DNA of 41,477 bases from an uncultured Caulobacterales bacterium (GTDB lineage: Bacteria > Pseudomonadota > Alphaproteobacteria > Caulobacterales > Caulobacteraceae): the NCBI GenBank assembly GCA_903874895.1, contig CAIQUG010000165.1, positions 1-41,477 of the forward strand. Reading direction: 5' to 3'. A program made the position numbers and the translations under genes. Below are positions 2,957 to 32,135 of this stretch, in pieces. Every line of letters begins with the position of its first letter. Within the stretch, counting starts at the first letter, position 1. The notes below the pieces were generated by a model that was not told the origin of the DNA, ran no database searches, and worked only from the letters and a program-made list of their open reading frames with translations.

Positions 2957-4417
2957 ATGGATCAACAGGCTCCCCGGCGCGGCGTCCGCGTCAACGACAG
3001 CAAGGTCCGTCCCGTGACACACGACACGCCCATCGCCCGCGGCATGGCCGCCGATCCCGCCGAATGCCGGGCCTTCCTGCAGGACAACCCGGACATACGC
3101 TATGTGGAGATCCTGTTCACCGGGATGAGCGGCGTCCCCCGTGGCAAGCGGCTGCGGCGGCATGAACTGCAGGCGATCTACGACTATGGCCGCTTCCTGC
3201 CGGGCTCGGTTCAGGTCGTGGATATCACCGGACAGGACGCCTACGACACCGGCCTCGTCTGGGAGAACGGGGATGCAGACATGCTGGCCCGCCCGGCACC
3301 GGGGACCCTGGTCCGCGCCCCGTGGCTCGGGGACGACACCGCCCAGGTCCTCTGCTCCATGCACGAACTCGACGGAACGCCCTCGGACCTCGACCCCCGG
3401 GCCTTGCTGAAGCGGGTGATCGACCGGTTCGCCGCCGATGGACTGACCCCGGTCACGGCCTGCGAGCTGGAATTCTATCTGGTGGACGCCCAGCGCACGG
3501 CCGACGGCGGACTGCAGACGGCCCGGCACCGGGTCACCGGTGAGCGGGCGCGGCTGAACGGGGTCTACGGTCTCGACGAGATGGAGGAGATCGGCCCCTT
3601 CCTGCGGGACCTGTGGGAGACGGCGGATGTCCAGGGCGTGCCGCTGGAAGGGGCCATCGCCGAATACGGCGTGGGTCAGGTGGAGCTGACCCTGAAGCAC
3701 AAGCCCGATGCCCTGCGGGCCTGCGACGATGCGGTGATGTACAAGCGCCTGGCCAAGGGCGTGGCCCAGCGCCACGGCCTGGCCGCCACCTTCATGGCCA
3801 AGCCGTTTGCGGATCAGGCGGGCAGCGGGCTGCATCTGCATGTGAGCGTGGCCGACGGTCACGGACCCAACATCTTCGCCAGCGAGGCACCGGAGGGCGA
3901 CCCCCGGCTGAAGCAGGCGATCGGCGGAATGAAGGCGCTGCTGGGGCCGTCCATGGCGATCTTCGCCCCCAATGCCAATTCGTACCGCCGCTTCCGGGCC
4001 AACAGCTACGCCCCCGTGGCACCCACCTGGGGGATCAACAACCGTACCGTCTCCCTGCGCATTCCCGCCGGCCCCGCCTCCACACGGCATGTGGAGCATC
4101 GAGTGGCAGGGGCCGACGCCAATCCGTATCTGGCGGTGGCGGCGCTTCTGGCGGGCGTGCATTACGGCCTGAAGAACCACTGCGATCCAGGGGCGATGGT
4201 CACCGGGGACGGCTATGCGGCGGCCGCGAAGATGGATCTGCGCCTCCCCTCCAACTGGTTCGCGGCCATTGAGGCCTTCGAGCAGTCGGAGGTGATGGCC
4301 GACTATTTCGGCGAACGCTTCGTGAAGATGTTCTGCGCGCTGAAGCGGCAGGAGCAGGACCGCTTCTTCGAGGTGGTCACGCGCCTTGACCTCGACTGGT
4401 ACCTGCACAATGCCTGA
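2957..4417 (+). CDS. puuA: Glutamine synthetase-family ligase, PuuA-like (gamma-glutamylpolyamine synthetase)
   Basis: A 486-residue glutamine-synthetase-fold protein. It has an N-terminal beta-grasp part (about 40-140), then catalytic motifs: ELEFYL near 170, EYGVGQVEL with metal-binding glutamates near 235-243, GSGLHLHVS near 290, and NSYRRF...INNRT near 337-363. It lacks the C-terminal adenylylation-site region of GlnA I read from memory, and its neighbours are all polyamine genes, so ATP-dependent gamma-glutamylation of putrescine or another polyamine is the likely reaction. It opens an apparent operon with the Pot-type transporter; its stop overlaps the next start by eight bases. A GTG at 3014 is an alternative start, since no strong ribosome site precedes 2957. 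Exact substrate is inferred from context. Confidence 0.8.
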   Translation: MDQQAPRRGVRVNDSKVRPVTHDTPIARGMAADPAECRAFLQDNPDIRYVEILFTGMSGVPRGKRLRRHELQAIYDYGRFLPGSVQVVDITGQDAYDTGLVWENGDADMLARPAPGTLVRAPWLGDDTAQVLCSMHELDGTPSDLDPRALLKRVIDRFAADGLTPVTACELEFYLVDAQRTADGGLQTARHRVTGERARLNGVYGLDEMEEIGPFLRDLWETADVQGVPLEGAIAEYGVGQVELTLKHKPDALRACDDAVMYKRLAKGVAQRHGLAATFMAKPFADQAGSGLHLHVSVADGHGPNIFASEAPEGDPRLKQAIGGMKALLGPSMAIFAPNANSYRRFRANSYAPVAPTWGINNRTVSLRIPAGPASTRHVEHRVAGADANPYLAVAALLAGVHYGLKNHCDPGAMVTGDGYAAAAKMDLRLPSNWFAAIEAFEQSEVMADYFGERFVKMFCALKRQEQDRFFEVVTRLDLDWYLHNA

Positions 4418-5525
4418 GACCCCGGCCCTGCCCCGTCGTCGTCCCCACCGCCGCTCCCTGCTGGCGGCGCTGGGCGCGTCCGGGGCTGCGGCCGTCGGCT
4501 TGAGCTTCGGGCTGGACGGGTGTTCGGACAAGGTGCGCCGGGGTGCCAACGGCGAAGACGCGAAGCTCAACTTCTACAACTGGGACACCTACATCGGGAA
4601 GGACACGCTGAAGGACTTCCGCGCGGCCACCGGTGTCGACGTGAACATGAGCCTGTTCGCCAACAATGACGAGCTGTTCGCCAAGCTCCGGGCCGGCAAT
4701 CCGGGCTTCGACGTGATCGTGCCCACCAACGAGTTCGTCACCCGCCTGCGGGTCGCCGACCTGATCCAGCCCCTGGACCACGCCCGCATCCCCAATTTCG
4801 GCAACCTGCTGCCGGAATTCCAGACGGTGGTGTTCGATCCCGACCGCCGCTACTCGATCCCCTATACCTGGCTGGTGCTCGGGATCGGCTACCGCAAGTC
4901 CAGGGTGGACGGCGTGCCCGACAGCTGGAAATGGCTGTTCGATTCCGACCGCTACAGGGGCCGGATCGGTCTGTTCTCCGAGGCTGACGACCTCGTCCGG
5001 CTGGCGGCCAAGTACATGGGCCACTCCGTCCGCAATGTTCCGGAGAGCCTGCTGCCGGTGATCGAAGCCATGTACGTCCGGCAGAAGAAGCATGTCCGCG
5101 TCTTCCACGAGGACAACGGCCAGGACCTGCTGCTGTCGGGCGATATCGACATCGTGCTCGAGTACAATGGCGACATCGCCCAGGTGATGCAGGAGGACGA
5201 CGATCTGGCCTTCGTCGTTCCGAAGGAAGGCACCCTGATCAACTCCGACTGCCTGTGCATCCCGCGGGGGGCGCCGCGCCCGGACAATGCCCACCGGTTC
5301 ATCAACTACCTGCTGGATGCGAAGGTCGGGGCGGACATCTCCAACACCATCATGTACCCGACGCCGAACGGTGCGGCGCTCGCCCTCATGCCGGACAGCT
5401 ATCGGCAGAACAGGGCGATCTTCCCGCCGAAGGACCGGATGGCCGTCAGCGAATATGGCGACTTCGAAGGGGTCGAGCGGACCCACATGTTCGACGAACT
5501 TCTCACCCGCGTGAAGGCGGCCTGA
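4410..5525 (+). CDS. potF: Polyamine ABC transporter substrate-binding protein, PotF-like
   Basis: A 371-residue protein starting at ATG 4410, inside the end of the upstream ligase gene. The N-terminus has twin arginines (RRSLLAAL) followed by a hydrophobic alanine/glycine-rich stretch and L-D-G-C at about residue 33, so it is exported, possibly by Tat or as a lipoprotein with an atypical lipobox. The mature part begins LNFYNWDTYIG, the typical opening of PotD/PotF proteins, and continues with FDVIVPTNEFV and FIPRG-like segments expected for spermidine/putrescine binding. It delivers polyamine to the permease pair encoded next. Whether it prefers putrescine (PotF) or spermidine (PotD) cannot be decided by eye. 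Confidence 0.88.
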   Translation: MPETPALPRRRPHRRSLLAALGASGAAAVGLSFGLDGCSDKVRRGANGEDAKLNFYNWDTYIGKDTLKDFRAATGVDVNMSLFANNDELFAKLRAGNPGFDVIVPTNEFVTRLRVADLIQPLDHARIPNFGNLLPEFQTVVFDPDRRYSIPYTWLVLGIGYRKSRVDGVPDSWKWLFDSDRYRGRIGLFSEADDLVRLAAKYMGHSVRNVPESLLPVIEAMYVRQKKHVRVFHEDNGQDLLLSGDIDIVLEYNGDIAQVMQEDDDLAFVVPKEGTLINSDCLCIPRGAPRPDNAHRFINYLLDAKVGADISNTIMYPTPNGAALALMPDSYRQNRAIFPPKDRMAVSEYGDFEGVERTHMFDELLTRVKAA

Positions 5526-5543
5526 CCATGGAGAGATCGTCCC

Positions 5544-6458
5544 ATGGCTGAGAATGTGGAGGAGCCCTGGACCCAGGCCAGGGGCATGTTCGCGTCCCTT
5601 CTGGCGGGACCGGTGCTGTTCCTGTTCGCCTTCCTGCTGGCCCCGCTGGCGATCATCTGGGGCTATTCCTTCGGCCACACCCAGGGGCTGAAGGACATCG
5701 TCGTGGACGGCACCTTCGCAAACTATGCCCACGCCCTCAACCCGCTGTACCTGTCGATCCTGTTCAAGTCCTTGGTGTTCGCGGTGCTGACCACGGGCAT
5801 CTGCCTGGTGGTCGGGTTTCCGGTAGCGATGGCGATCACCTTCGCCAAGCCCCAGTCCCGGGCGTGGCTGCTGCTGCTGATCATGCTGCCCTTCTGGACC
5901 AACCTGCTGATCCGGACCTATGCCCTGATGGCGGTTCTGAGAACCCAGGGCTACATCAATGTATTTCTGGGCTTTTTATGGAACAGCTTGAGCCATCTTG
6001 TGGCCACCGCCCACCTGGCGCATCTGGCCCCGTTCCAGCCGCTGGACCTGCTCTACAACAACTTCGCCGTGATCCTCGGCCTGGTCTATGTCCAGCTGCC
6101 CTTCATGGTGCTGCCGCTCTATTCCGCCATGGATCGGCTGGATCGATCCCTGCTGGAGGCCAGCCTCGACCTCGGCGCGGGGCACCTGAGGACCCTGTTC
6201 CAGATCGTCGTGCCCCTGGCCATGCCGGGCATCGCCTCCGGCGTTCTGGTGACGCTGATCCCGTCCCTCGGCGCGTTCCTCACCCCTGACCTGCTGGGCG
6301 GTGTCGACAGCCAGATGATCGCCAATGTGATCGAGCGCCAGTTCAAGGCGGCCAATGACTGGCCCTTCGGCGCGGCCCTGTCGTTCCTCCTGATGTACGT
6401 GACCTTCGCCGCGATTGCGCTGCAGTCCATGTTCACGCCGAAGAGAGGACGCCGCTGA
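5544..6458 (+). CDS. potH: Polyamine ABC transporter permease, PotH-like
   Basis: A 304-residue inner-membrane permease with about six hydrophobic spans. The first is near residues 18-38, and the rest run from about 72 to 295. The EAA-type cytoplasmic loop that docks on the ATPase is visible as LDLGAGHLRTLFQIVVPLA near residues 209-227. It forms the transmembrane channel together with the next gene. The start at 5544 is preceded by GGAGAGA; an ATG at 5528 is out of frame. The stop (TGA 6456-6458) overlaps the next ATG by one base, so the two permease genes are translationally coupled. Confidence 0.88.
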   Translation: MAENVEEPWTQARGMFASLLAGPVLFLFAFLLAPLAIIWGYSFGHTQGLKDIVVDGTFANYAHALNPLYLSILFKSLVFAVLTTGICLVVGFPVAMAITFAKPQSRAWLLLLIMLPFWTNLLIRTYALMAVLRTQGYINVFLGFLWNSLSHLVATAHLAHLAPFQPLDLLYNNFAVILGLVYVQLPFMVLPLYSAMDRLDRSLLEASLDLGAGHLRTLFQIVVPLAMPGIASGVLVTLIPSLGAFLTPDLLGGVDSQMIANVIERQFKAANDWPFGAALSFLLMYVTFAAIALQSMFTPKRGRR

Positions 6459-7312
6459 TGGCCGAGACGCAGCGCCCTCCCCGCCCGAAGCCCGGCCCGC
6501 TCGACTACCTCGCCCGCTGGCCCCTGCGCCTGTGGGTGGCCGGGACCGTGGTGTTCCTCTACGCACCGCTGGCCACCCTGATGGTGTTCAGCTTCAACAA
6601 CTCCCGGCGCAACATCGTCTGGCGGGGCTTCACCCTCGACTACTACGCCCAGGTCCTGCAGGACGAGAGCCTGCAGCACGCCTTCGTCAACAGCCTGACC
6701 ATCGCGCTCGTTTCCACCGTGCTCAGCGTGATCCTGGGCGCAGCCACGGCGCTGCTGCTCTGGCGGTTCCGGTTTCCGTTCAAGCCGGGTCTGGAGGGGG
6801 CCCTCTCCATCCCCATCGTGGTGCCGGAAATCTGCATGGGCGTGGCCTTCCTGGTGTTCTTCACGAAGGTGGTGCCGTGGCCTACGGCCCTGCCCTGGCC
6901 CCTGAACCTGGGGGCCATCATCATCGCCCACGTGTCCTTCTCGTTCAGCTTCGTGGCCAGCGTGGTCCGTGCCCGCCTCGCGTCGTTCAACCGCGAGATG
7001 GAAGAGGCCGCCCGCGACCTGGGCGCCAGCGAGTGGCGAACCCTGATGGACATCATCGTGCCGCATATGCGCCCCGGCCTGTTCGCCGGCGGTCTGCTGG
7101 CCTTCACCCTCAGCCTGGACGATTTCGTCATCACCTTCTTCACCTCGGGACCGGACACCATCACCTTCCCGGTGAAGGTCTATTCCATGATCCGCTTCTC
7201 GGTGACGCCGGAGGTCAATGCCGCCTCCACCCTGCTCATCGTCATCACCGTGGCCCTCACCGCCATTGCGCTTCGGCTGCAGGGCAGTGATGCCGGCCAT
7301 GACGCCTTGTGA
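6458..7312 (+). CDS. potI: Polyamine ABC transporter permease, PotI-like
   Basis: A 284-residue second permease subunit with about six membrane spans. It contains the EAA-like loop ARDLGASEWRTLMDIIVPH near residues 183-201, followed by a conserved-looking SLDDFVITFF segment typical of PotI/PotC. It pairs with the PotH-like subunit. Start ATG 6458 overlaps the previous stop. The gene is nine bases from the ATPase gene, consistent with a single transcript. Confidence 0.88.
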   Translation: MAETQRPPRPKPGPLDYLARWPLRLWVAGTVVFLYAPLATLMVFSFNNSRRNIVWRGFTLDYYAQVLQDESLQHAFVNSLTIALVSTVLSVILGAATALLLWRFRFPFKPGLEGALSIPIVVPEICMGVAFLVFFTKVVPWPTALPWPLNLGAIIIAHVSFSFSFVASVVRARLASFNREMEEAARDLGASEWRTLMDIIVPHMRPGLFAGGLLAFTLSLDDFVITFFTSGPDTITFPVKVYSMIRFSVTPEVNAASTLLIVITVALTAIALRLQGSDAGHDAL

Positions 7313-7321
7313 GGCCCCGCC

Positions 7322-8446
7322 ATGACCGGACGCGCCATCATCACCTTCGAGAACGTCACCAAGCGCTACGGCCGGGTCGTGGCCGTGGACAACGTGTCCC
7401 TCAGCATCGACGAAGGGGAGTTCTTCGCCCTCCTGGGCCCGTCCGGCTGCGGCAAGACCACCCTGCTGCGCATGGTGGCAGGGCTCGAGACCCCCGATGA
7501 CGGGCGCATCCTGATCGATGGCCAGGACGTGACCCAGGTGCCCCCCAACCGGCGACCGGTGAACATGGTGTTCCAGTCCTATGCCGTCTTCCCGCACATG
7601 ACCGTGGCTGCCAATGTGGCCTATGGCCTGAAGGTCGAGGGCGTGGCCGAGGCCGAGATTGCGCCACGGGTGGAGCAGGCCCTGAAGCTGGTCAAGCTGG
7701 ACGGATACGGGGCGCGCAAGCCGGACCAGCTGTCCGGGGGGCAGCGGCAGCGGGTGGCGCTGGCCCGGGCCCTGATCAAGAAGCCCCGCGTGCTGCTGCT
7801 GGACGAACCCCTGTCCGCCCTCGACGCCAAGCTCCGGGAGCAGATGCGGTTCGAGCTGACCCAGTTGCAGGACCAGATCGGCGTGACCTTCCTGATCGTC
7901 ACCCACGACCAGGACGAGGCGCTCGCCATGGCATCCCGCTGCGCCGTGATGAACAAGGGCCTGCTGCAGCAGGTGGGCTCCCCGTCGGACCTGTACGAGT
8001 TCCCCAACAGCCGCTTCGTCGCCGACTTCATCGGCCAGGTGAACATCTTCGAGGGTCGCCTCGACATCGATGCCCCCGACCATGCCGTGATCTCATGCCC
8101 CGGGCTGCCGACCCCCGTCTACCTGGACCACGGAGTCACAGGGGCCACAGGGGCCACCGTCTGGGTCGCCCTGCGACCGGAGAAGATCGAGCTGTCCGGC
8201 CGCAAGCCCGGCTCCGAACCACCGAAGATGGAGGATGCCCCCCAGGGCGCGAATATCGTCGCCGGGGAGGTCCGGCACATCGTCTATCTGGGTTCGGAAT
8301 CCCTGTTCGAGGTGGAGCTGGACGGCGGGGCCCGGGTCAAGGCGCTGCGCACCAATCTCACCCGCTGGGACCAGGAGGATTTTGCCGTGGGCCAGCCGGT
8401 CTGGCTGGCCTGGCACGCCTGTTCCCCCGCCATCCTTCTGAATTGA
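7322..8446 (+). CDS. potG: Polyamine ABC transporter ATP-binding protein, PotG/PotA-like
   Basis: A 374-residue ATPase that energises import. Visible motifs are Walker A GPSGCGKTT (about residues 39-47), a Q-loop in VFQSYAVFPH (about 84-93), the signature LSGGQRQRVALARAL (about 138-152), Walker B VLLLDEPLSALD (about 158-169) and the H-loop VTHDQDEA. The C-terminal 120 residues form the TOBE-type regulatory region of this subfamily. It is the fourth transporter gene in the unbroken order binding protein, permease, permease, ATPase. The 70-bp gap after it is the longest inside the operon. Confidence 0.9.
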   Translation: MTGRAIITFENVTKRYGRVVAVDNVSLSIDEGEFFALLGPSGCGKTTLLRMVAGLETPDDGRILIDGQDVTQVPPNRRPVNMVFQSYAVFPHMTVAANVAYGLKVEGVAEAEIAPRVEQALKLVKLDGYGARKPDQLSGGQRQRVALARALIKKPRVLLLDEPLSALDAKLREQMRFELTQLQDQIGVTFLIVTHDQDEALAMASRCAVMNKGLLQQVGSPSDLYEFPNSRFVADFIGQVNIFEGRLDIDAPDHAVISCPGLPTPVYLDHGVTGATGATVWVALRPEKIELSGRKPGSEPPKMEDAPQGANIVAGEVRHIVYLGSESLFEVELDGGARVKALRTNLTRWDQEDFAVGQPVWLAWHACSPAILLN

Positions 8447-8516
8447 CCGGAAACGGACCTGAAGATCAGCCGAATAGGCATTCCCATTCAAACACCTACA
8501 CGAAGAAAGACACCCG

Positions 8517-9905
8517 ATGACCCTGCGCAATCACGATATCGCCGAGCTCCGCCGCCTCGACGTCGCCCATCACCTTCCCGCTCAGGCGGATCACGGCCTG
8601 ATGCAGCAGCTGGGCGGGTCGACCATCATCACCCGTGCCCAGGGCTGCCATATCTATGATGGCGAGGGGCGCGCCATCCTCGACGGCATGGCCGGCCTGT
8701 GGTGCGTGCAGGTGGGCTATGGCCGCGAGGAACTGGCTCAGGCCGCCTACGACCAGATGATCGAGCTGCCCTACTACAACACCTTCTTCAAGACCGCGAC
8801 GCCACCCGCCGTGAAGCTGGCCTCCAAGATCGCCAGCCTGATGGGCGGCAATCTCAGCCACGTGTTCTTCAACAGCTCCGGCTCCGAGGCGGTGGACACC
8901 ATCATCCGCCTGACCCGCTTCTACTGGGCGGCCAAGGGCCAGCCGGAGAAGCACGTGATCATCGCCAGAACCAATGCCTATCACGGGTCGACGCTGGGCG
9001 GGGTGAGCCTGGGCGGCATGGGCCCCATGCGCGGTCAGGGCGGACCTCTGGTGCCGGGCTTCGAGCACATCATGCAGCCCTATGCCTTCAACCTGGGCTT
9101 CGGCGAGGACGAGGAGAGCTTCTGCAACCGCGCCGTCCAGGAACTGGAGGACAAGATCCTTCAGGTCGGGCCCGAACGGGTGGCGGCCTTCATCGGCGAG
9201 CCGGTGCAGGGCGCCGGCGGCGTCATCATCCCGCCGGAGGGCTACTGGCCCAAGATCGAGGCCGTATGCCGCAAGTATGGCATCCTGCTGATCTGCGACG
9301 AGGTGATCTGCGGCTATGGGCGCCTGGGGGAATGGTTCGGCTTCCAGAAGTACGGGGTGAAGCCGGACCTGATCTCCATGGCCAAGGGTCTGTCCTCGGG
9401 CTACCTGCCGATCTCCGCCGTGGGCGTGGCGGACCATGTGGTGGAGGTCCTGCGGGAGGTCGGCACCGACTTCATCCATGGCTACACCTATTCCGGCCAC
9501 CCCACCTGTGCCGCCGTGGCCCTGGCGAACATCGCCATCCTGGAGCGGGAGCACCTGGTGGACCGCGTGCGGGACGACATCGGCCCCTATGCCCAGAAGG
9601 TGCTGGCTACCCTGGCCGATCACCCGCTGGTGGGCGAGGTGCGCATGACCGGGCTCCTTGGCGCGGTAGAGATCGTGTCCGAACCGGGGACCAACCATCG
9701 CTTTGGCGGCAAGGAAGGCAAAGCCGGACCCATCGCCCGCGATGCCTGCATCCGCAACGGCCTGATGGTCCGCGGGATCCGGGACAGCCTCGTGTTCTGC
9801 CCGCCCCTGATCATCACCGAGGCGGAAGTGGACAAGGCCGTCGCCATCATCCGCGCGTCGCTGGACGAGGTCACCCCGGTGCTTCGCGCCATCCCCGCCG
9901 CCTGA
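8517..9905 (+). CDS. spuC: Class III aminotransferase, putrescine-pyruvate aminotransferase-like (SpuC)
   Basis: A 462-residue PLP-dependent aminotransferase. The N-terminal HLPAQADHGLMQQLGG region and DGMAGLWCVQVGYGREEL are typical of the SpuC/omega-amine group. The PLP lysine is in SMAKGLSSGY (about Lys290), and an upstream CDEVICGYGR carries the conserved Asp that binds the pyridine nitrogen. It would convert putrescine to 4-aminobutyraldehyde with pyruvate as acceptor. The location right after a Pot-type transporter and before spermidine dehydrogenase supports this; other omega-amines are possible substrates. A weak GAAAGA ribosome site precedes the ATG. Confidence 0.82.
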   Translation: MTLRNHDIAELRRLDVAHHLPAQADHGLMQQLGGSTIITRAQGCHIYDGEGRAILDGMAGLWCVQVGYGREELAQAAYDQMIELPYYNTFFKTATPPAVKLASKIASLMGGNLSHVFFNSSGSEAVDTIIRLTRFYWAAKGQPEKHVIIARTNAYHGSTLGGVSLGGMGPMRGQGGPLVPGFEHIMQPYAFNLGFGEDEESFCNRAVQELEDKILQVGPERVAAFIGEPVQGAGGVIIPPEGYWPKIEAVCRKYGILLICDEVICGYGRLGEWFGFQKYGVKPDLISMAKGLSSGYLPISAVGVADHVVEVLREVGTDFIHGYTYSGHPTCAAVALANIAILEREHLVDRVRDDIGPYAQKVLATLADHPLVGEVRMTGLLGAVEIVSEPGTNHRFGGKEGKAGPIARDACIRNGLMVRGIRDSLVFCPPLIITEAEVDKAVAIIRASLDEVTPVLRAIPAA

Positions 9906-11894: not shown

Positions 11895-13286
11895 TCAGAC
11901 GTTCAGCAAGAGGAACTCCCGCTCCCACGGGCTGATCACCCGCATGAAGGTGGCGAATTCGGCGCGCTTCACGGCGGCGAAGGTGGTGACGAAGCGACGA
12001 CCGAACGCCTCGTCCAGTTCCTCCGTATCCTCGAACAGGCGAACGGCCTCCAGCAGGCCGGACGGCAGGTCGAACTCCGATGCCCGGCTGGCACCGGCCA
12101 CCGGCTCGGACGCATTCAGCCCCTCCACAAGACCGAAATAGCCGCAGGCCAGCACGGCGGCGAGGGCCAGATACGGATTGGCGTCAGACCCCGGCGCCCG
12201 GCATTCCACCCGGCGGTTGGCGGCATTGGAGGGCGGGATCCGCAGGCCCGTGGTGCGGTTGTCATAGCCCCACTGGACGTTCACGGGGGCCGAGGAGTTG
12301 GACACCAGCCGCCGGTAGGAATTCACATACGGGGCCAGCATGCAGGTCACCGCCGGCACCAGCTTCTGCTGGCCGCCGATGTAGTGGAAGAACTCCGGGG
12401 TCGGGCGGCCCTCCTCGTCGGTGAAGATGTTGCGGCCGGTGGTAGCGTCCACCACGCTCTGGTGGATGTGCATGGCCGAGCCCGGCTCGTTGGCGATCGG
12501 CTTGGCCATGAAGGTCGCATAGATGTCGTGGGCCAGCGCCGCCTCGCGGATGGTGCGTTTCAGCAGGAACACCTGGTCCGCCAGTTCGATGGGATCCCCG
12601 TGACGCAGGTTGATCTCCATCTGCGCGGCCCCTTCCTCGTGGATCAGGGTGTCCACCTCCAGGTGCTGGGCCTCGGCAAATTCATAGATGTCCTCGAACA
12701 CCGCATCGAACTCGTTCACCGCAGAGATGGAGTAGGAGCGACGCCCCGCCTCTGCCCGGCCGGACCGCCCGATGGGCGGTTCCAGCGGATAGTCGGGATC
12801 GACATTGCGCTTCACCAGATAGAACTCGATCTCCGGCGCCACCACGGGCTTCCAGCCGCGCTTGGCATAGAGGTCGACGATCCGCTTCAGCACCTGCCGC
12901 GGGGCGATCTCCACAGGCCGACCATCGCGGAACATGGCGTCATGGATGACCTGGGCGGTGGGATCGGTGGCCCAGGGCACCTCGCACAGGGTCGAGAAGT
13001 CGGGCCGCAGCTCGATATCCCCGTCGGAGGGGTCGTAGCGGAACTCGTCCGTCTCGTCCGGATATTCCCCGGCAATGGTCTGCATGAAGATCGAGGACGG
13101 CAGGGCCATGGCCGTGTCGTCGAAGAACTTGGAGGCGGGCATGATCTTGCCCCGGGCCACGCCGGCGAGATCGGGCACCACGCACTCGATCTCGGTGATG
13201 CCGCGGCTGGCCGCCCAGGCCCGGGCCTCGGCGACGTTGGAGATGACCGGACGGACCGGAAGGTCGATGGATTTCTTCTTGGCCAT
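11895..13286 (-). CDS. Second glutamine synthetase-family ligase, PuuA-like
   Basis: A 463-residue paralogue of the 2957-4417 ligase, starting at ATG 13286 (MAKKKSID). A 49-codon upstream extension is Arg/Pro-rich and was rejected. Motifs include EIEFYL (about 145), EEGAAQMEINL with metal-binding glutamates (about 217-227), SAMHIHQS (about 266) and NSYRR...YDNRTTGLRIP (about 320-350). Divergence from the first ligase is large enough that the two probably act on different amines or at different steps. It faces the TonB receptor gene across 384 bp containing candidate operators, and converges on spermidine dehydrogenase. The substrate is inferred from context only; glutamylation of another amine is possible. 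Confidence 0.78.
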   Translation of the reverse strand: MAKKKSIDLPVRPVISNVAEARAWAASRGITEIECVVPDLAGVARGKIMPASKFFDDTAMALPSSIFMQTIAGEYPDETDEFRYDPSDGDIELRPDFSTLCEVPWATDPTAQVIHDAMFRDGRPVEIAPRQVLKRIVDLYAKRGWKPVVAPEIEFYLVKRNVDPDYPLEPPIGRSGRAEAGRRSYSISAVNEFDAVFEDIYEFAEAQHLEVDTLIHEEGAAQMEINLRHGDPIELADQVFLLKRTIREAALAHDIYATFMAKPIANEPGSAMHIHQSVVDATTGRNIFTDEEGRPTPEFFHYIGGQQKLVPAVTCMLAPYVNSYRRLVSNSSAPVNVQWGYDNRTTGLRIPPSNAANRRVECRAPGSDANPYLALAAVLACGYFGLVEGLNASEPVAGASRASEFDLPSGLLEAVRLFEDTEELDEAFGRRFVTTFAAVKRAEFATFMRVISPWEREFLLLNV

Positions 13287-13524
13287 GTGAGCGACTCTGC
13301 GGTTTTGGGCCGGTGCGGGTCTGGAAAGGGCGATCCGGCGTCTGGGATTGGGGGCGGGAATCAGGGGCAATCGACCCGCTAGTCGTCGGGTGCGCCGGCA
13401 ACGCGCCCTGCATCGGCCGGTCTGGGCCGACAACCGCCGCGGACGGCGGTGCGATCACTGAGGGGTCTGGGCTTGCCCATGCAGGGCGACGTGCATGCGC
13501 GTCGCCAAACGCTCCAACCTTGTG

Positions 13525-13537
13525 TGCAGTCGCTGCA
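13525..13537. promoter_or_regulatory. Inverted repeat, possible second operator
   Basis: TGCAG (13525-13529) and CTGCA (13533-13537) form a perfect inverted repeat around TCG. It lies centrally in the divergent region, in AT-richer DNA next to CATAACTTG. A dimeric regulator site is possible; chance is also possible for a 5-bp half-site. Confidence 0.25.
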
Positions 13538-13594
13538 AGCATAACTTGCCACCGTTTCAGGCGCCAGTGGGCTTCGCGCCACAGCCCGGGATTA

Positions 13595-13605
13595 TGTGAT
13601 CACAG
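13595..13605. promoter_or_regulatory. Candidate operator palindrome upstream of TonB receptor
   Basis: TGTGATCACAG contains the perfect palindrome TGTGATCACA (13595-13604). It lies just upstream of the TTGACA hexamer at 13610-13615 and shares GTGATCACAG with the site at 2907-2916 before the first polyamine operon. Confidence 0.4.
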
Positions 13606-13670
13606 CGCCTTGACAGGCTCAACCCGGGGACGGAACGTCACGTAACCATCACACGCCCGAGGATATGTAC

Positions 13671-26968: not shown

Positions 26969-27065
26969 CAAGGCGGACAGATCAAGTTCCGTTCATCGGT
27001 TGAGGACACGCCTCACCGACCCCGACCCACCGCCCAACGGGCGATACCCAGCGAAGGACCACACC

Positions 27066-27401
27066 ATGACCCGCCTCAAGACCACTGCCGCCATCCTGTT
27101 CGCGGCCCTGACCCTCGGAGCCGGCATCGCGTCGGCCTCTGCCGAGACGCGCTTCCAGGAGGCACATCCCCGCCGTACCGAAGTGCTGGCCCGGGCCCGA
27201 GCGGAGAACCACCGCATCACCGAGGCCCGCAGGGAGGGCGACATCAACGGCGCGCAGGCTCATCGGCTCCGCGAGCACAACCGGGACATCGTCCGGCGGG
27301 AACAGCGCCTCGCCCGCCGCCAGGGGGGCATGATCACCCGGGGCGAGCAGGTCCGCCTGAACCACGCGGAAAACCGCCTTGCCCGCCATACCCCGGACTG
27401 A
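27066..27401 (+). CDS. Small secreted basic protein, likely stress-induced
   Basis: A 111-residue protein starting at ATG 27066, seven bases after AAGGA. A signal peptide (MTRLKTTAAILFAALTLG, cleavage after SASA near residue 26) leaves a mature domain of about 85 residues rich in Arg, His, Glu and Gln, with two similar helical repeats (HRITEARREGDINGAQAHRL and RRQGGMITRGEQVRLNHAEN). Each ends in a short G-x-I-x-x-x-E/Q turn, giving a heptad-like helical-hairpin look. No enzyme motif is seen. Similar short periplasmic proteins exist in other proteobacteria without a known role. An EcfG-type promoter lies upstream and a hairpin downstream, so it is probably monocistronic and induced in general stress. 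Confidence 0.75.
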   Translation: MTRLKTTAAILFAALTLGAGIASASAETRFQEAHPRRTEVLARARAENHRITEARREGDINGAQAHRLREHNRDIVRREQRLARRQGGMITRGEQVRLNHAENRLARHTPD

Positions 27402-27460: not shown

Positions 27461-27552
27461 CTTGCGTCCGGCGGCCGCCCATCCATCGCCTCAGATCTGC
27501 GCTAAGACTGGGCGTGCGTCCTTCCGACAGACCTCCTGATTCGCGTGACCCC

Positions 27553-30500
27553 ATGACCGGCCCCTCTCCGCATCTCATCCTGCCGGCCGCGCCGCCCTAT
27601 CCTGATGACCCCTATCTCCGGGACGACCTGCTGCACGAGATCTTTGCGGAAACGGCAGGTCGTTTTCCCGAGCGCACAGCCATACGCCTGGCCGAAGCCG
27701 ATCCCACGGGGGTTCGGCGCACCTCCCTGCCCTATGCCGAGCTGCGTCAGCGGGCCTCCCAGTTCGCGCGGTATCTGCGGCTGAGAGGGGTCGTTCGCGG
27801 AGACCGGGTCGTGATCTGCCTGCCCCGCAGCCTCGACCAGTACATGGCCATTCTCGGCGTCCTGGAAGCCGGGGCCGCCTATGTTCCCGTGGACTGGAGC
27901 TTTCCCCAGGATCGCGCGGACTACATCGCCGAGGAGTCGGCGGCCCGGGTCGTCGTGACCAGCCGCGACCGGTCGGACGCCTTTGCCGACGCGGGGGCCG
28001 AGGTGGTGAACCTCGACCGCGACCTCGGAGACATCGCCGCCTGTGAGACCGTGCCTCTGACCCGGGCGGATACCGGGGCCGATCCAGAGGACGCGGCCTA
28101 TCTGATCTACACCTCCGGTTCCACGGGAAAGCCCAAGGGTGCCATCATCCGGCACCGCAACATCGCCTTCGAGACCCGGTCCAACGGTGCCATCCTCGGC
28201 ATCACCTGCGAAGACCGGGTCTATGCGGGCGCGTCCCTCGCCTTCGACGTGTCGGTGGAGGAGATGTGGTGCGCCTTCCTGGCCGGGGCTGAACTGCTGG
28301 TCGGTTCCGAAGCCCTGTCCAAGGCCGGGCCGGATCTCGGGGCCACCCTGGCGCGGGAGGGCGTCACCGTCTGGGCCCCGGTACCGTCCCTGCTGGCCGT
28401 GATGGAAGAGGACATTCCCTCCGTCCGGCTGATCAATGCCGGGGGCGAGGCCTGCCCGGCCGATCTGGTCCGGCGGTGGGCCCGACCGGGGCGGCGCATG
28501 CTGAACACCTATGGTCCCAGCGAGACCACGGGCTCCTCCACCTGGAGCGAAGTCACGCCGGGCGAGCCTGTGACCATCGGCCGCCCTCTTCCCGGTTACT
28601 GGGCCGCCGTCGTGGGGGACGACCTGACCCCTCTGCCGCCGGGGACCGAGGGTGAACTGCTGATCGGCGGGCCGGGCGTCGGCGCAGGCTACCTGAACCG
28701 GCCGGACCTGACGGCGGACAAGTTCATCCAGACGACGTTTTCCGGACCCTCCGGCGGACCAGAGCTGGCCTATCGCTCCGGCGACCTCTGCCGCGTGACC
28801 ACGGGCGGGGACATCGACTATCTGGGGCGCATCGACACACAGGTGAAGATTCGTGGCTATCGTGTTGAATTAGGTGAGATCGAAGCCGTCCTGATGGAAG
28901 ATCCACAGGTGGCCCAGGCAGTGGTGGCCCTGTTCCCCGATCCGGGCGGCGCCGACCTGCTGGCCGCCTTCCTGACGCCGGTGCGGGATGGGATCATCGC
29001 CCTGGACAGCCTGCGCGCCCTGCTGCGGCTCCGCCTGCCGGGCTACATGCATCCCCACGCCTTCGAGATCCGCGACACCCTGCCGACCCTTGTCTCCGGC
29101 AAGGTGGACCGCAAGGCCTTGACGCGCCCGGCCCATGTGGAACTGGCCCAGCGGGAACTCGAGCTGCCCGAGACCCCCACCGAGGTCCTGCTGCACGACG
29201 CCTGGAGCCAGATCTTCGCACCGGCCCCCGTCTCCGTCAGCGACGATTTCTTCGAGGAACTGGGGGGGCACTCCCTGCGGGCGGCGAAGCTGGTCTCCCT
29301 GCTGCGCCGGGATCCGGCGATGAAGATGATCTCCATTCAGGATATCTATGCGGCCCCGACCATTCGCAGCCTGGCCGAACGCATGGATGCCGCCCGCCTC
29401 GGAGGCGATCGGGCCGCCAAGGTCGAGACGCCCTTCCATCCGCACAATCCGGTGTCCCGGGCCCTGTGCGTCATCGGCCAGACCCTCGCCCTCGTTCCGA
29501 TCTATGCTTTTTCCGGCCTGCAGTGGCTGTTGCCCTACCTTGTCTACAATGTGCTCACCACGGACGAGCCGGAGAGCCGCCTGCCGGCCCTGGGATTTGC
29601 GCTGCTCACCTATCTGGTCATGCCGCCGGCGATGATCGTGCTGTCCATCCTGGTGAAGTGGATGGTCATCGGCCGCATCAAGCCCGGCGACTATCCCCTC
29701 TGGGGGGCCTACTATTTCCGCTGGTGGTTCGTGCGGCGGTTCCTGGCGGTGATCCCGATCCAGTTCCTGTCCGGCACTCCGCTGATGCGGATCTACTACC
29801 GGGCGCTCGGCGCACGGATCGGGGAGCGGGTGCAGCTGCGCCTGTCAGACATCGACGCGCCGGACCTGGTGGAGATCGCCGACGACGCCATCATCAGCGA
29901 GGGTGCCAATCTGGCGACGTCCGGGGTCGAGCGCGGTGTGCTGCGCCTTGGCCGGGTATCGATCGGTGCCCGGGCCTTTGTCGGCACCATGGCCGTGGTG
30001 GGCCGGGACAGCACGATCGGTCCTGACGGTGTGCTGGAGGACCTTTCCATGCTCCCGGCCACCGAGCAGCTTGGCGCCGGGGAAGTCTGGTCCGGATCTC
30101 CGGCCCGCAGGATCGGCGAAGCACCCGCGCGCCCCCAGCCGACCCCGCCGGGGTTGATCCGGAAGGCGCTGGTGTCCACCGGGTTGGTCCTGGCAGCCCT
30201 GGTCCTGCCCGTGGCGGCGGTCCTGCCCATCGGGCCGGGCCTGATCATGATCATCGAGCTCGACTGGGCGACCACCGGCTACGGCTACATCGCCGTGACG
30301 CCGCTCCTGGCGGTGATCTACGTGCTGGCCATGTGTGCCCTTACGGTCGTCGTGAAGTGGGCGCTGATCGGTCGTGTGAAGCCGGGTACCTATTCTCTTT
30401 GGAGCGGCTTCTATGTCCGGCTGTGGTTCGTGCGCCAGCTGGGGGAACTGGCCCTGGACCTGCTGCATCCCCTCTACGCCACGCTGTATGTCCGGCCGTG

Positions 30501-31566
30501 GTATCTGGCCCTCGGGGCCAGGGTGGGAAAGCGGGCGGAGATCTCCACCGCAACCTCCGTAGTGCCGGACCTGATCGAGATCGGCGCGGAGAGCTTCATC
30601 GCCGATGGCGTGGTGTTCGGGGCACCAAGGGCCGTTCCCGGTGCGATCCAGCTGGCCAACACCCGGATCGGCCGCCGGACCTTTGTCGGCAATTCCGGTC
30701 TTCTGCCCACCGGAGCGGACCTGGGGGACGAGGTGTTGCTGGGCGTCCTGTCCAAGCCCCCCGCGGACGCCCATGCCGCGCTGGAGACCGGCTCCACCTG
30801 GTTTGGCTCCCCCGCGATCCGTCTGCCGCGGCGCCAGATCGCCACGGTGTTCGACGAGGGCGCGCGGTTCAAGCCCTCCCGGCGGCTGGTGGCCACCCGA
30901 CTGGCCATCGAGTCCGTGCGGATCACCCTGTCCCTGACGGTCTTCCTGTCCCTGTTCAGCGTCCTTCTGTCGATGATCAGCGACATATCGGATCTCCCCC
31001 ACGGCATCTGGTGGATCGCAGCGCTGTTTCCGCTCCTGTACATGGGCTTTGCCCTGGCCGCCGGCGGGTTCGTGATCGTGCTGAAATGGCTGGTCATGGG
31101 ACGCTACAAGCCCACCAACCAGCCCCTGTGGAGTCTGTTTGTCTGGAGGACCGAACTGGTCACCTCCACCTACGAGAACCTCGCAGTCCCTCTGCTGCTG
31201 GATCCCCTGCGGGGTACGCCCTACCTCAACATCTTCCTGCGCCTCCTGGGCTGCCGCATCGGCAAGCGGGTCTTCACCGACACCACGGACATCACCGAGT
31301 ACGATCTCGTGGAGGTGGGGGATGACGCCGCGCTGAATGATGGAGCCGGGCTCCAGACCCACCTCTTCGAGGACCGGGTGATGAAGGTCAGCGGCCTGAA
31401 GATCGGGGCCCGGGCCACGGTGGGGTCCCTGGCCATCGTGCTCTATGACGCGGTGATCGATGACGACGCCCAGCTGGGGGACCTGTCCGTCCTGATGAAG
31501 GGCGAGACCCTGCCCGCCGGGACGAGCTGGGAGGGGTCCCCCGCCCGCCCGGCCCGGGGCAGCTGA
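27553..31566 (+). CDS. Pls/PosA-family single-module nonribosomal peptide synthetase
   Basis: A 1337-residue membrane synthetase. An adenylation domain (about 20-530) carries IYTSGSTGKPKG (about 182), NTYGPSETT, YRSGDL, GYRVELGEIE and the catalytic Lys517 (SGKVDRK). A carrier domain follows with phosphopantetheine Ser574 (LGGHSL). The rest has three tandem modules, each two membrane helices, a K-W-x-x-x-G-R-x-K-P-x-x-x-x-L-W signature and a left-handed beta-helix part: about 637-860, 871-1090 and 1117-1330. This is the layout of the epsilon-poly-lysine synthetase Pls, which makes a homopolymer without a condensation or thioesterase domain. My hand-derived pocket (D, V, E, A, I, A, T, G, S, K) has an acidic residue at GrsA position 239, compatible with a cationic amino acid. 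ATG 27553 is chosen; a GTG at 27514 is the alternative. The product is unknown. Confidence 0.85.
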   Translation: MTGPSPHLILPAAPPYPDDPYLRDDLLHEIFAETAGRFPERTAIRLAEADPTGVRRTSLPYAELRQRASQFARYLRLRGVVRGDRVVICLPRSLDQYMAILGVLEAGAAYVPVDWSFPQDRADYIAEESAARVVVTSRDRSDAFADAGAEVVNLDRDLGDIAACETVPLTRADTGADPEDAAYLIYTSGSTGKPKGAIIRHRNIAFETRSNGAILGITCEDRVYAGASLAFDVSVEEMWCAFLAGAELLVGSEALSKAGPDLGATLAREGVTVWAPVPSLLAVMEEDIPSVRLINAGGEACPADLVRRWARPGRRMLNTYGPSETTGSSTWSEVTPGEPVTIGRPLPGYWAAVVGDDLTPLPPGTEGELLIGGPGVGAGYLNRPDLTADKFIQTTFSGPSGGPELAYRSGDLCRVTTGGDIDYLGRIDTQVKIRGYRVELGEIEAVLMEDPQVAQAVVALFPDPGGADLLAAFLTPVRDGIIALDSLRALLRLRLPGYMHPHAFEIRDTLPTLVSGKVDRKALTRPAHVELAQRELELPETPTEVLLHDAWSQIFAPAPVSVSDDFFEELGGHSLRAAKLVSLLRRDPAMKMISIQDIYAAPTIRSLAERMDAARLGGDRAAKVETPFHPHNPVSRALCVIGQTLALVPIYAFSGLQWLLPYLVYNVLTTDEPESRLPALGFALLTYLVMPPAMIVLSILVKWMVIGRIKPGDYPLWGAYYFRWWFVRRFLAVIPIQFLSGTPLMRIYYRALGARIGERVQLRLSDIDAPDLVEIADDAIISEGANLATSGVERGVLRLGRVSIGARAFVGTMAVVGRDSTIGPDGVLEDLSMLPATEQLGAGEVWSGSPARRIGEAPARPQPTPPGLIRKALVSTGLVLAALVLPVAAVLPIGPGLIMIIELDWATTGYGYIAVTPLLAVIYVLAMCALTVVVKWALIGRVKPGTYSLWSGFYVRLWFVRQLGELALDLLHPLYATLYVRPWYLALGARVGKRAEISTATSVVPDLIEIGAESFIADGVVFGAPRAVPGAIQLANTRIGRRTFVGNSGLLPTGADLGDEVLLGVLSKPPADAHAALETGSTWFGSPAIRLPRRQIATVFDEGARFKPSRRLVATRLAIESVRITLSLTVFLSLFSVLLSMISDISDLPHGIWWIAALFPLLYMGFALAAGGFVIVLKWLVMGRYKPTNQPLWSLFVWRTELVTSTYENLAVPLLLDPLRGTPYLNIFLRLLGCRIGKRVFTDTTDITEYDLVEVGDDAALNDGAGLQTHLFEDRVMKVSGLKIGARATVGSLAIVLYDAVIDDDAQLGDLSVLMKGETLPAGTSWEGSPARPARGS

Positions 31567-31634
31567 CGTCGGGAGACGCTTGGCGGCTCGCGCAAGGACG
31601 GCTAAGGAACGCATCGAGCAGACGGAGAATGTCC

Positions 31635-32135
31635 ATGCGTAGCCAGACCTGCCTTGCTGTCCTGATGATTGCCGCAGCCCTGACCGGATGCAGCCCCGGC
31701 AAGTCGGATACCAGTGGTGCCGCCTCGACCTCCGCCACCAGCGGCGACGCCTCGGCCCTCGACACGCCAGCCAACCGCAAGCTGGTGGAGGAGCTGGGCC
31801 CGGCCTATGCCAAGGCCGACCTCGCCAACGGTCAGGTGCGGTTCGCCCTGTGCCGCTCCTGTCATACCATCGCCAAGGGCGGGCCGAACATGACGGGTCC
31901 GAACCTCTATGGCCTGTTCGGCCGGGCCTCGGCCGCGGTGCCGGACTACTCCTATTCGGAAGGCATGAAGGCCGCCCACGTGGTCTGGGGGGCCGACACG
32001 CTGAACACCTGGATCAAGGATCCGAAGGCCATGGTGGCCGGTACCAAGATGAGCTACCCGGGCATGCCGGACGACAAGGACCGGGCCGATCTCATTGCCT
32101 ATCTCAAGGTGGCGTCCAGCGGCGGGGCGAACTAG
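31635..32135 (+). CDS. Lipoprotein class I cytochrome c
   Basis: A 166-residue cytochrome. The N-terminus MRSQTCLAVLMIAAALTGC ends in a lipobox (A-L-T-G-C), and a Ser/Thr/Ala-rich tether of about 30 residues follows, so it is membrane-anchored and periplasmic. The haem motif is CRSCH (about 76-80), and the axial methionine is probably in KMSYPGM near 140. It resembles small c2/c552-type electron carriers. ATG 31635 is preferred over ATG 31629 because GGAG lies seven bases upstream of the former and abuts the latter. Its stop interlocks with that of the convergent Coq10-like gene in CTAG. Confidence 0.88.
   Translation: MRSQTCLAVLMIAAALTGCSPGKSDTSGAASTSATSGDASALDTPANRKLVEELGPAYAKADLANGQVRFALCRSCHTIAKGGPNMTGPNLYGLFGRASAAVPDYSYSEGMKAAHVVWGADTLNTWIKDPKAMVAGTKMSYPGMPDDKDRADLIAYLKVASSGGAN

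Follow-up and report, generated by a model that had tools for sequence, protein, structure and literature searches.

A predicted Pls/PosA-type cationic-polymer synthetase with an altered adenylation pocket in an uncultured Caulobacterales bacterium

We identified a gene encoding a Pls/PosA-family non-ribosomal peptide synthetase (ORF, Pfam and NCBIfam) at 27553..31566 (+) of the window, the whole 41,477-nucleotide stretch of DNA analysed here. The frame runs uninterrupted from an ATG at 27553 to a stop at 31566 and encodes 1337 residues arranged as A-PCP-[2TM-LbH]x3. An in-frame GTG lies further upstream, at 27514. Pfam matches comprise AMP-binding (residues 31-381), AMP-binding_C (442-517), PP-binding (548-610) and Hexapep. 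The adenylation (A) domain (27628..29130 (+); Pfam, NCBIfam and structure model) scores 405.4 bits against the amino-acid adenylation family TIGR01733 (cut-off 317.4). The carrier (PP-binding) domain (29191..29382 (+); Pfam and motif) has an intact Ser574 (codon 29272-29274) in the motif GGHSL. No condensation or thioesterase family is among the four families matched in the Pfam scan (E <= 0.001), and residues 643-1331 match TIGR02353 ('Pls/PosA family') at 752.7 bits (NCBIfam cut-off 423.1). The complete A domain, the carrier with its serine, the missing condensation and thioesterase domains and the Pls-type layout had all been proposed in a preliminary description, and all were borne out.

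The C-terminal region is predicted to comprise three tandem modules, each a pair of transmembrane helices followed by a beta-helix. Module 1 spans 29455..30171 (+) (helices 638-656 and 683-701; hydropathy and AlphaFold2). Module 2 (30172..30882 (+); helices 873-891 and 915-933), which contains a conserved Asn1047, and module 3 (30883..31563 (+); helices 1124-1142 and 1158-1176) were delimited by hydropathy, AlphaFold2 and conservation. The modules were expected from the first reading, and three results agree with them: six hydrophobic helices fall into three pairs by hydropathy, the modules are 33-43% identical to one another (E 3e-21 to 3e-38), and the last 724 residues, modelled with AlphaFold2 (mean pLDDT 94.2, pTM 0.93), show three times over a pair of long helices and, after it, short helices and numerous short strands. 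Of 22 C-terminal columns that show 97% or higher conservation across 66 family rows from beyond the synthetase's clade, 21 are retained (the exception is R985 -> L), so the residues conserved in the tandem domains, whose loss had been named as a point against the assignment, are kept with that one exception. We propose the conserved module 3 residues Gln1268, His1270, Glu1273 and Lys1316 as a putative active site.

A sequence search of solved structures with the C-terminal region returned weak beta-helix matches alone (best E 6e-4), and Foldseek with the model gave single-module transferases and similar chains, with no whole-region relative among the matches listed. Among solved structures, beta-helix acetyltransferases match the model best (VIA Z <= 8.0 over ~140 residues, a level that the tool rates as common). 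Left-handed beta-helix acyltransferases such as maltose/galactoside O-acetyltransferase and AntD share the fold of the C-terminal beta-helix, but they are soluble, have one module and lack the membrane-helix pair. The PosA model in the literature has six membrane helices, on which three beta-helices are packed into a single body resembling an acyltransferase (PMC10522769).

The gene looks, from sequence comparison, to be under constraint. Its dN/dS is 0.10-0.18 against four genus-mates (dS 0.55-1.39), and it is found in 6/6 searched genomes of the host genus, and so is no chance frame. Of the 64 A+PCP columns that are highly conserved, 62 are retained. As judged by sequence, the protein is a further member of the recognised Pls/PosA kind.

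Pls, reportedly the epsilon-poly-L-lysine synthetase described by Yamanaka and colleagues in 2008, shares with our synthetase the TIGR02353 family and the A-PCP-three-tandem-domain arrangement. We take 7wew to be the A-domain structure paired with Pls. The Pls comparison was made through lysine-code rows, which share 5/10 code positions with the synthetase; the synthetase falls outside these rows in both the A-domain and the C-terminal trees. NAPAA (non-alpha poly-amino acid), presumably the antiSMASH label for the Pls/PosA gene type, is an annotation class that covers this gene; it labels a class and is not itself a characterised enzyme. The class is named in PMC13291983 and PMC9716278.

PosA of the Gram-negative Acinetobacter baumannii was reported in 2023 to make delta-poly-L-ornithine in vitro, with homologues over many phyla (PMC10522769). 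A Gram-negative product of this class, which the preliminary description had regarded as new, is therefore already on record. The string 'caulobacter' has 0 occurrences in the main text of that paper, and our literature search gave no paper on a Pls/PosA-type gene in Caulobacterales among the matches listed. PosA was compared through its homologue L057 (CP040041.1) and through PosA structures PDB 8G95-8G98. Our synthetase shares with PosA the whole layout, the Asp/Glu/Thr/Ser pocket ligands, a single-gene locus and a Gram-negative host; the A domains of the synthetase and L057 are 43.5% identical and their C-terminal regions 36.3%. The synthetase's clade is alphaproteobacterial and lies outside the PosA clade. 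Gram-negative cationic-polymer synthetases are already recognised, and it is the altered pocket that distinguishes this one.

The A domain carries the pocket residues D232, V233, E236, A275, N295, G297, T319, G327, S328 and K517 (code DVEANGTGSK), with Asp232 and Glu236 at code positions 1 and 3. Glu236 (28258..28260 (+)), the acidic residue on which a basic substrate had first been proposed and presumably the equivalent of GrsA position 239, aligns with PosA Glu221. The PosA ligands Asp217, Glu221, Thr304 and Ser313 are matched (four of five), and the fifth, Met218, is replaced by Val. The A-domain model superposes on the PosA core (8g95-8g98; TM (target) 0.94-0.95, rmsd ~2 A, ~400 residues), including PosA with bound ornithine or lysine (8g96, 8g98; rmsd ~2 A). 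A neutral-substrate A domain was ruled out as the leading reading, both acidic and both hydroxyl PosA ligands being matched. The cationic substrate is thus supported, and the earlier view of the pocket is refined to a PosA-type cage with three changes common to one group of relatives.

The code agrees with PosA (DMEHNGTVSK) at 7/10 positions, differing by M -> V, H -> A and V -> G, and it departs from the PosA-subgroup pattern DMEHNGTV[ST]K; PosA F212 is also replaced by Ala. It departs likewise from the lysine code DAESIGTV[VI]K (5/10 positions identical). Val233 stands where poly-Dap and poly-Dab synthetases are marked by Phe (code position 2); for comparison, L061, whose gene adjoins a Dab transaminase, has the code DFECLSAVTK. 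The exact code DVEANGTGSK has no match among the characterised enzymes of the literature consulted. At three pocket positions the side chains are smaller than in PosA (Phe -> Ala, Met -> Val, His -> Ala), and the widened pocket may take lysine besides ornithine. Phe is kept in 8/10 lysine-code rows where the synthetase has Ala, so this change is not a lysine feature. Given this and the 7/10 versus 5/10 code agreement, we rate L-lysine and L-ornithine level, each a tentative assignment, and some other substrate as slightly less probable than either; we infer that L-lysine or L-ornithine, or both, are used.

Published work on PosA bears directly on these substitutions (PMC10522769). Glu221 holds the side-chain amine of the substrate, as mutagenesis indicates. 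The M218A variant has a nearly 10-fold higher kcat/KM for L-Lys with minimal loss for L-Orn. PosA itself activates lysine weakly without polymerising it, so the polymer is not fixed by the A pocket alone. His260 of PosA, altered in our synthetase, makes no substrate contact, and part of the pocket widening may therefore be neutral.

The genus-mates of the synthetase have A domains 70-90% identical to its own. The nearest outgroups (L054, L055, L056, L142, L143 and L148) carry DMEHNGTVTK. Rows with altered codes (DVEANGTGSK, DVEADGTVSK, DIEADGTVAK, DVEFNGTVAK, DIECNGTVTK and DIESIGTVAK) form one group in the A-domain tree (SH-aLRT 96), and the C-terminal tree places two ornithine-code rows among them. 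Eighty-three A-domain columns are invariant in 21 ornithine-code rows (of 24, chosen partly by code), and just three of these are changed in all 10 altered rows (of 11 in the tree; among the code rows, L096/L051 and L062/L147 are each one contig twice). Two of the three are code positions (with a modest hypergeometric p of 0.02-0.04), and the third corresponds to PosA Phe212, five residues ahead of the key Asp.

These changes would be neutral if the enzyme were a plain delta-poly-L-ornithine synthetase that kept the substrate of its PosA-code outgroups, a possibility that we take seriously while leaning against it. It is favoured by the four retained PosA ligands, by Asn at code position 5, by the outgroup codes and by the small effect of M218A on ornithine use; the concentration of the all-changed columns at code positions argues against it. 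Alternatively, within one group of the host family (Caulobacteraceae), an ancestral ornithine pocket may have been remodelled and then diversified, so that the cationic polymers of close relatives differ, one or more of them being built from an amino acid or mixture new as a natural isopeptide polymer. We consider this rather unlikely.

The genes around the synthetase offer few clues to its product. No tailoring, export, protease or acetyltransferase gene is found among its annotated neighbours, and no acceptor-modifying gene is conserved beside it over genera among the clade loci compared. The former is consistent with a product other than a free homopolymer, such as an oligomer that is capped or of mixed composition, or a lipid or envelope acceptor to which a diamino acid or a short chain has been added. 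A Pls/PosA-type gene described inside a hybrid PKS-NRPS-PUFA cluster (PMC13291983) points the same way, as the terminal domain is thus not confined to stand-alone loci. The lack of a conserved acceptor-modifying gene speaks against such a product, as do the characterised members named in PMC10522769, which each build their polymer from a single diamino acid, with branching in one case; we consider such a product improbable. A cytochrome c gene (31629-32135) lies 63 bp behind the synthetase, and one follows on the same strand at 10 loci in four genera; homologues occur in 381/390 family genomes, so its presence is uninformative and it was set aside as a functional partner. In L048, L050, L051 and L054 a gene for a LacI-type regulator lies near the synthetase at varying distances; it is absent at this locus and was not used.

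We also identified a phosphopantetheinyl-transferase-like gene directly behind the synthetase in 12/17 clade loci (this locus, where it is absent, included; half-gene L053 not counted). The transferase cluster had 13 members, from which L154, an ORF overlapping the synthetase and lacking the motif, was dropped. Eight of the 12 cis genes were Pfam-scanned for PF01648 (cut-off 25 bits): L056, L062, L063 and L150 clearly reach it, L048 is barely over (25.4), and L050 (24.2), L051 (15.3) and L054 (13.3) are below. Those of L055, L151 and L152 have a PF01648 match in a 61-genome count, and that of L091 was assigned through 51% identity to L056. The KEA-motif Lys is kept in L056, L063, L091, L150 and L151 (5/12), is Arg in L062 and L152, and is another residue in the remaining five putative transferases.

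The host genome encodes an unlinked Sfp-type transferase (L158:1147-1839, contig C85), with a 98% identical relative in G004 and two copies at 33-35% identity in G002. The preliminary description thus holds for tailoring and export neighbours; its view that the gene lacks a partner does not extend to these transferases. L158-like transferases (E <= 1e-15) occur in 6/16 family genomes with the synthetase versus 1/374 without (Fisher p 1e-8). At least two PF01648 matches (E <= 1e-5) occur in 11/16 synthetase genomes versus 7/45 others (p 2e-4; the 61 genomes counted comprise every one of the 16 synthetase genomes plus 45 hand-picked over genera from the 374 that lack it). By a post hoc grouping, 6/6 synthetase genomes without a cis transferase have a trans copy and 0/10 others do; one of the ten, G561, lies outside the clade and has a single PF01648 match, on a different contig. 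The synthetase is the sole one of 15 adenylation-domain matches in the host genome over the family cut-off, and two of three PP-binding matches lie outside it in short frames (124 and 86 aa), so the L158 transferase has few other visible clients. This cis-or-trans pattern suggests a helper gene for co-expression with the synthetase.

Genus-mates L048, L050 and L051 carry a transferase-like gene in the gap between synthetase and cytochrome c, which is 63 bp here, as might be expected if the gene were decaying, its carrier unprimed after loss of the neighbouring transferase. The low dN/dS, the retained conserved residues and the Sfp-type transferases of the host, G004 and G002 make this highly improbable.

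We therefore favour, with a probability of roughly 0.8, a self-contained, membrane-bound enzyme of Pls/PosA type that is primed in trans and converts a long diamino acid into a homopolymer that is short, cationic and joined by isopeptide bonds. Ser574 would be primed by a phosphopantetheinyl transferase whose gene lies at another place in the genome, and the A domain would adenylate the diamino acid and load it onto the carrier. Asp232 would hold the alpha-amine, and Glu236, Thr319 and Ser328 the side-chain amine. The C-terminal region would link the carboxylate held on the carrier to a side-chain amine, either of a free residue or of the growing chain, yielding the short cationic polymer. The isopeptide linkage, the module 3 active site and the use of the polymer are likewise our suppositions.

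If the substrate has not shifted, the gene would be one more predicted cationic-polymer synthetase of a class known in Gram-negative bacteria. If it has, close relatives with differing pockets and a largely similar polymerising part would form a natural experiment on monomer choice by Pls/PosA enzymes and on the tolerance of the membrane domain for a different monomer.

We identified in the window a 1337-residue frame (27553-31566, + strand) that encodes an adenylation (A) domain followed by a carrier domain; its terminal domain is TIGR02353, which NCBI names 'Pls/PosA family non-ribosomal peptide synthetase' (Pfam and NCBIfam profiles; TIGR02353 score 752.7 bits, NCBIfam cut-off 423.1). Pfam and NCBIfam scans found no match to condensation or thioesterase families in the protein. 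Its three C-terminal modules share 33-43% identity with one another, and each has one pair of hydrophobic helices. Modelling with AlphaFold2 as two separate halves gave confident models of both (mean pLDDT 88.8 for the A-carrier half; pLDDT 94.2 and pTM 0.93 for the C-terminal half). Domain matches, module repeats, helix pairs and models thus bear out the stand-alone Pls-type layout proposed in the preliminary description. The dN/dS is 0.10-0.18, base composition is that of the flanking DNA, and the gene appears to be intact and belongs to an established synthetase family.

The preliminary description took a Gram-negative product of this class to be new. An Acinetobacter baumannii member, PosA, already makes delta-poly-L-ornithine in vitro (PMC10522769), and that claim therefore falls. 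PosA homologues are reported from many phyla, and the PosA C-terminal region has been modelled as three beta-helices on six helices (PMC10522769). The corresponding beta-helices of the window's synthetase resemble acetyltransferases with a VIA Z of at most 8.0, a common level that indicates fold likeness only. In 66 reference rows, polar positions that are at least 97% conserved include Q643 and R723 (module 1), N1047 (module 2), and Q1268, H1270, E1273 and K1316 (module 3). The module 3 set is a putative catalyst of the step in which the side-chain amine would attack the carrier thioester.

TIGR02353 exceeds its cut-off in 6/6 genomes of the window's genus, 5/249 of the order and 10/385 of the class; within the family, probably Caulobacteraceae, 16 of 390 genomes have a match at E ≤ 1e-60 (15 over the cut-off). 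The position of the synthetase is conserved in five genus-mates as far as contigs extend, followed there by genes for a cytochrome c lipoprotein, a polyketide-cyclase-like protein (PF03364), LipA and 2-oxoacid-dehydrogenase-complex-like proteins. The cytochrome c lipoprotein gene (31629-32135) lies 3' of the synthetase on the same strand at 10 loci in four genera, and is the only close match to a window gene near the synthetase in L055 and L062; cytochromes of this type occur in 381/390 family genomes. Upstream, a small protein with no Pfam match (27000-27401) has 44-74% identity to counterparts at three other loci (L048, L049, L050). A single frame at 22257-23723 matches cytochrome b561, with YceI in its C-terminal part. 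Putrescine/spermidine-type ABC transporter genes (2957-9905) lie further upstream, some 18 kb from the synthetase, and are bordered by genes for a class III aminotransferase and a gamma-glutamylputrescine-synthetase-like protein; most best scores here are below equivalog cut-offs.

Other synthetase loci were also recorded. A Sphingomonas parapaucimobilis plasmid (L056, 6090-11205) encodes an ornithine-code synthetase, followed by a phosphopantetheinyl transferase plus an acetyltransferase of the GNAT type, the latter possibly serving self-protection. On a Streptomyces plasmid (L061, 1934-8653), a synthetase with code DFECLSAVTK adjoins diaminobutyrate transaminase and aspartate kinase, and this is likely a poly-Dab locus. 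In L054, a regulator gene of LacI type, as judged by eye (12571-13659), ends 50 bp ahead of the synthetase on the same strand. A divergent synthetase in the same family (L149/L157, genome G561) has the code DSECYGGVTK, which is reported for a protein from the Bdellovibrionales that is modestly active with arginine (PMC10522769). A member from a 1.8 Mb alphaproteobacterial genome (L190) has DFEHSGTCSK, which was not found among the codes in the consulted sections of the PosA paper (PMC10522769).

At 12 of 17 loci of the alphaproteobacterial clade, a phosphopantetheinyl-transferase-like gene lies directly 3' of the synthetase on the same strand (clear matches in eight, weak in four). This adjoining gene is absent at the window, its two nearest relatives (G004, G002), and G266, G407 and G408. 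Among synthetase-bearing genomes, exactly these six carry an unlinked transferase like L158 of the window's genome (E ≤ 1e-15), found in only 1/374 family genomes without a synthetase (Fisher p 1e-8, with a cut that rests on likeness to L158). Two or more PF01648 matches of any kind (E ≤ 1e-5) occur in 11/16 synthetase-bearing genomes versus 7/45 chosen others. In the window's genome, three PP-binding matches were found, and no other A domain is over the family cut-off. The view that the synthetase has no partner thus holds at the locus; given the unlinked transferase and its few potential clients, a partner probably exists elsewhere in the genome, the helper gene having probably been relocated.

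Pocket positions were assigned by the PosA homologue L057 (CP040041.1), whose residues 217, 218, 221, 260, 280, 304, 312 and 313 are those of the paper. Against L057, the window's pocket is D232, V233, E236, A275, N295, G297, T319, G327, S328 and K517. It matches PosA at Asp217, Glu221, Thr304 and Ser313 but has Val for Met218, the residue that the PosA authors propose limits substrate length (PMC10522769). An M218A change in PosA raised lysine efficiency nearly 10-fold and minimally lowered ornithine use (PMC10522769). The PosA code occurs in 24 of the 86 family rows in the alignment (the window plus 85 ORFs). The window's code occurs in five rows, one of which (L096) is a repeat of L051, and these represent four species of a single genus; the remaining two genus-mates have DVEADGTVSK and DIEADGTVAK.

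Trees of 46 rows were built for the C-terminal region and, without pocket columns, for the A domain. They place the window in a 19-row alphaproteobacterial clade comprising 11 altered-pocket rows (10 distinct genomes) and eight with DMEHNGTVTK. The altered rows form one group on the A-domain tree (SH-aLRT 96); on the C-terminal tree, ornithine-code rows L054 and L055 nest among them, so a single pocket change, several changes or a domain exchange may each account for the pattern. A comparison of 368 A-domain columns showed 83 without variation across 21 ornithine-code rows; 16 of these 83 vary in the altered group. Three are changed in 10/10 altered rows (PosA numbering): Phe212 to Ala, Met218 to Val/Ile, and His260 to Ala/Phe/Cys/Ser. 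Enrichment at code positions is modest (p 0.02-0.04). The window has Ala, Val and Ala, each smaller than the ornithine-code residue.

Superposed on PosA structures that hold ornithine or lysine, the A-domain model fits at an rmsd of about 2 A. Ala occupies position 212 in 21/21 DLED-code rows. Phe212 is kept in 8/10 lysine-code rows, which counts against a simple lysine reading, and for this reason we assign lysine and ornithine the same tentative probability as substrate, roughly one in three each. These observations suggest that the pocket of the window's synthetase is widened and may admit lysine besides ornithine.
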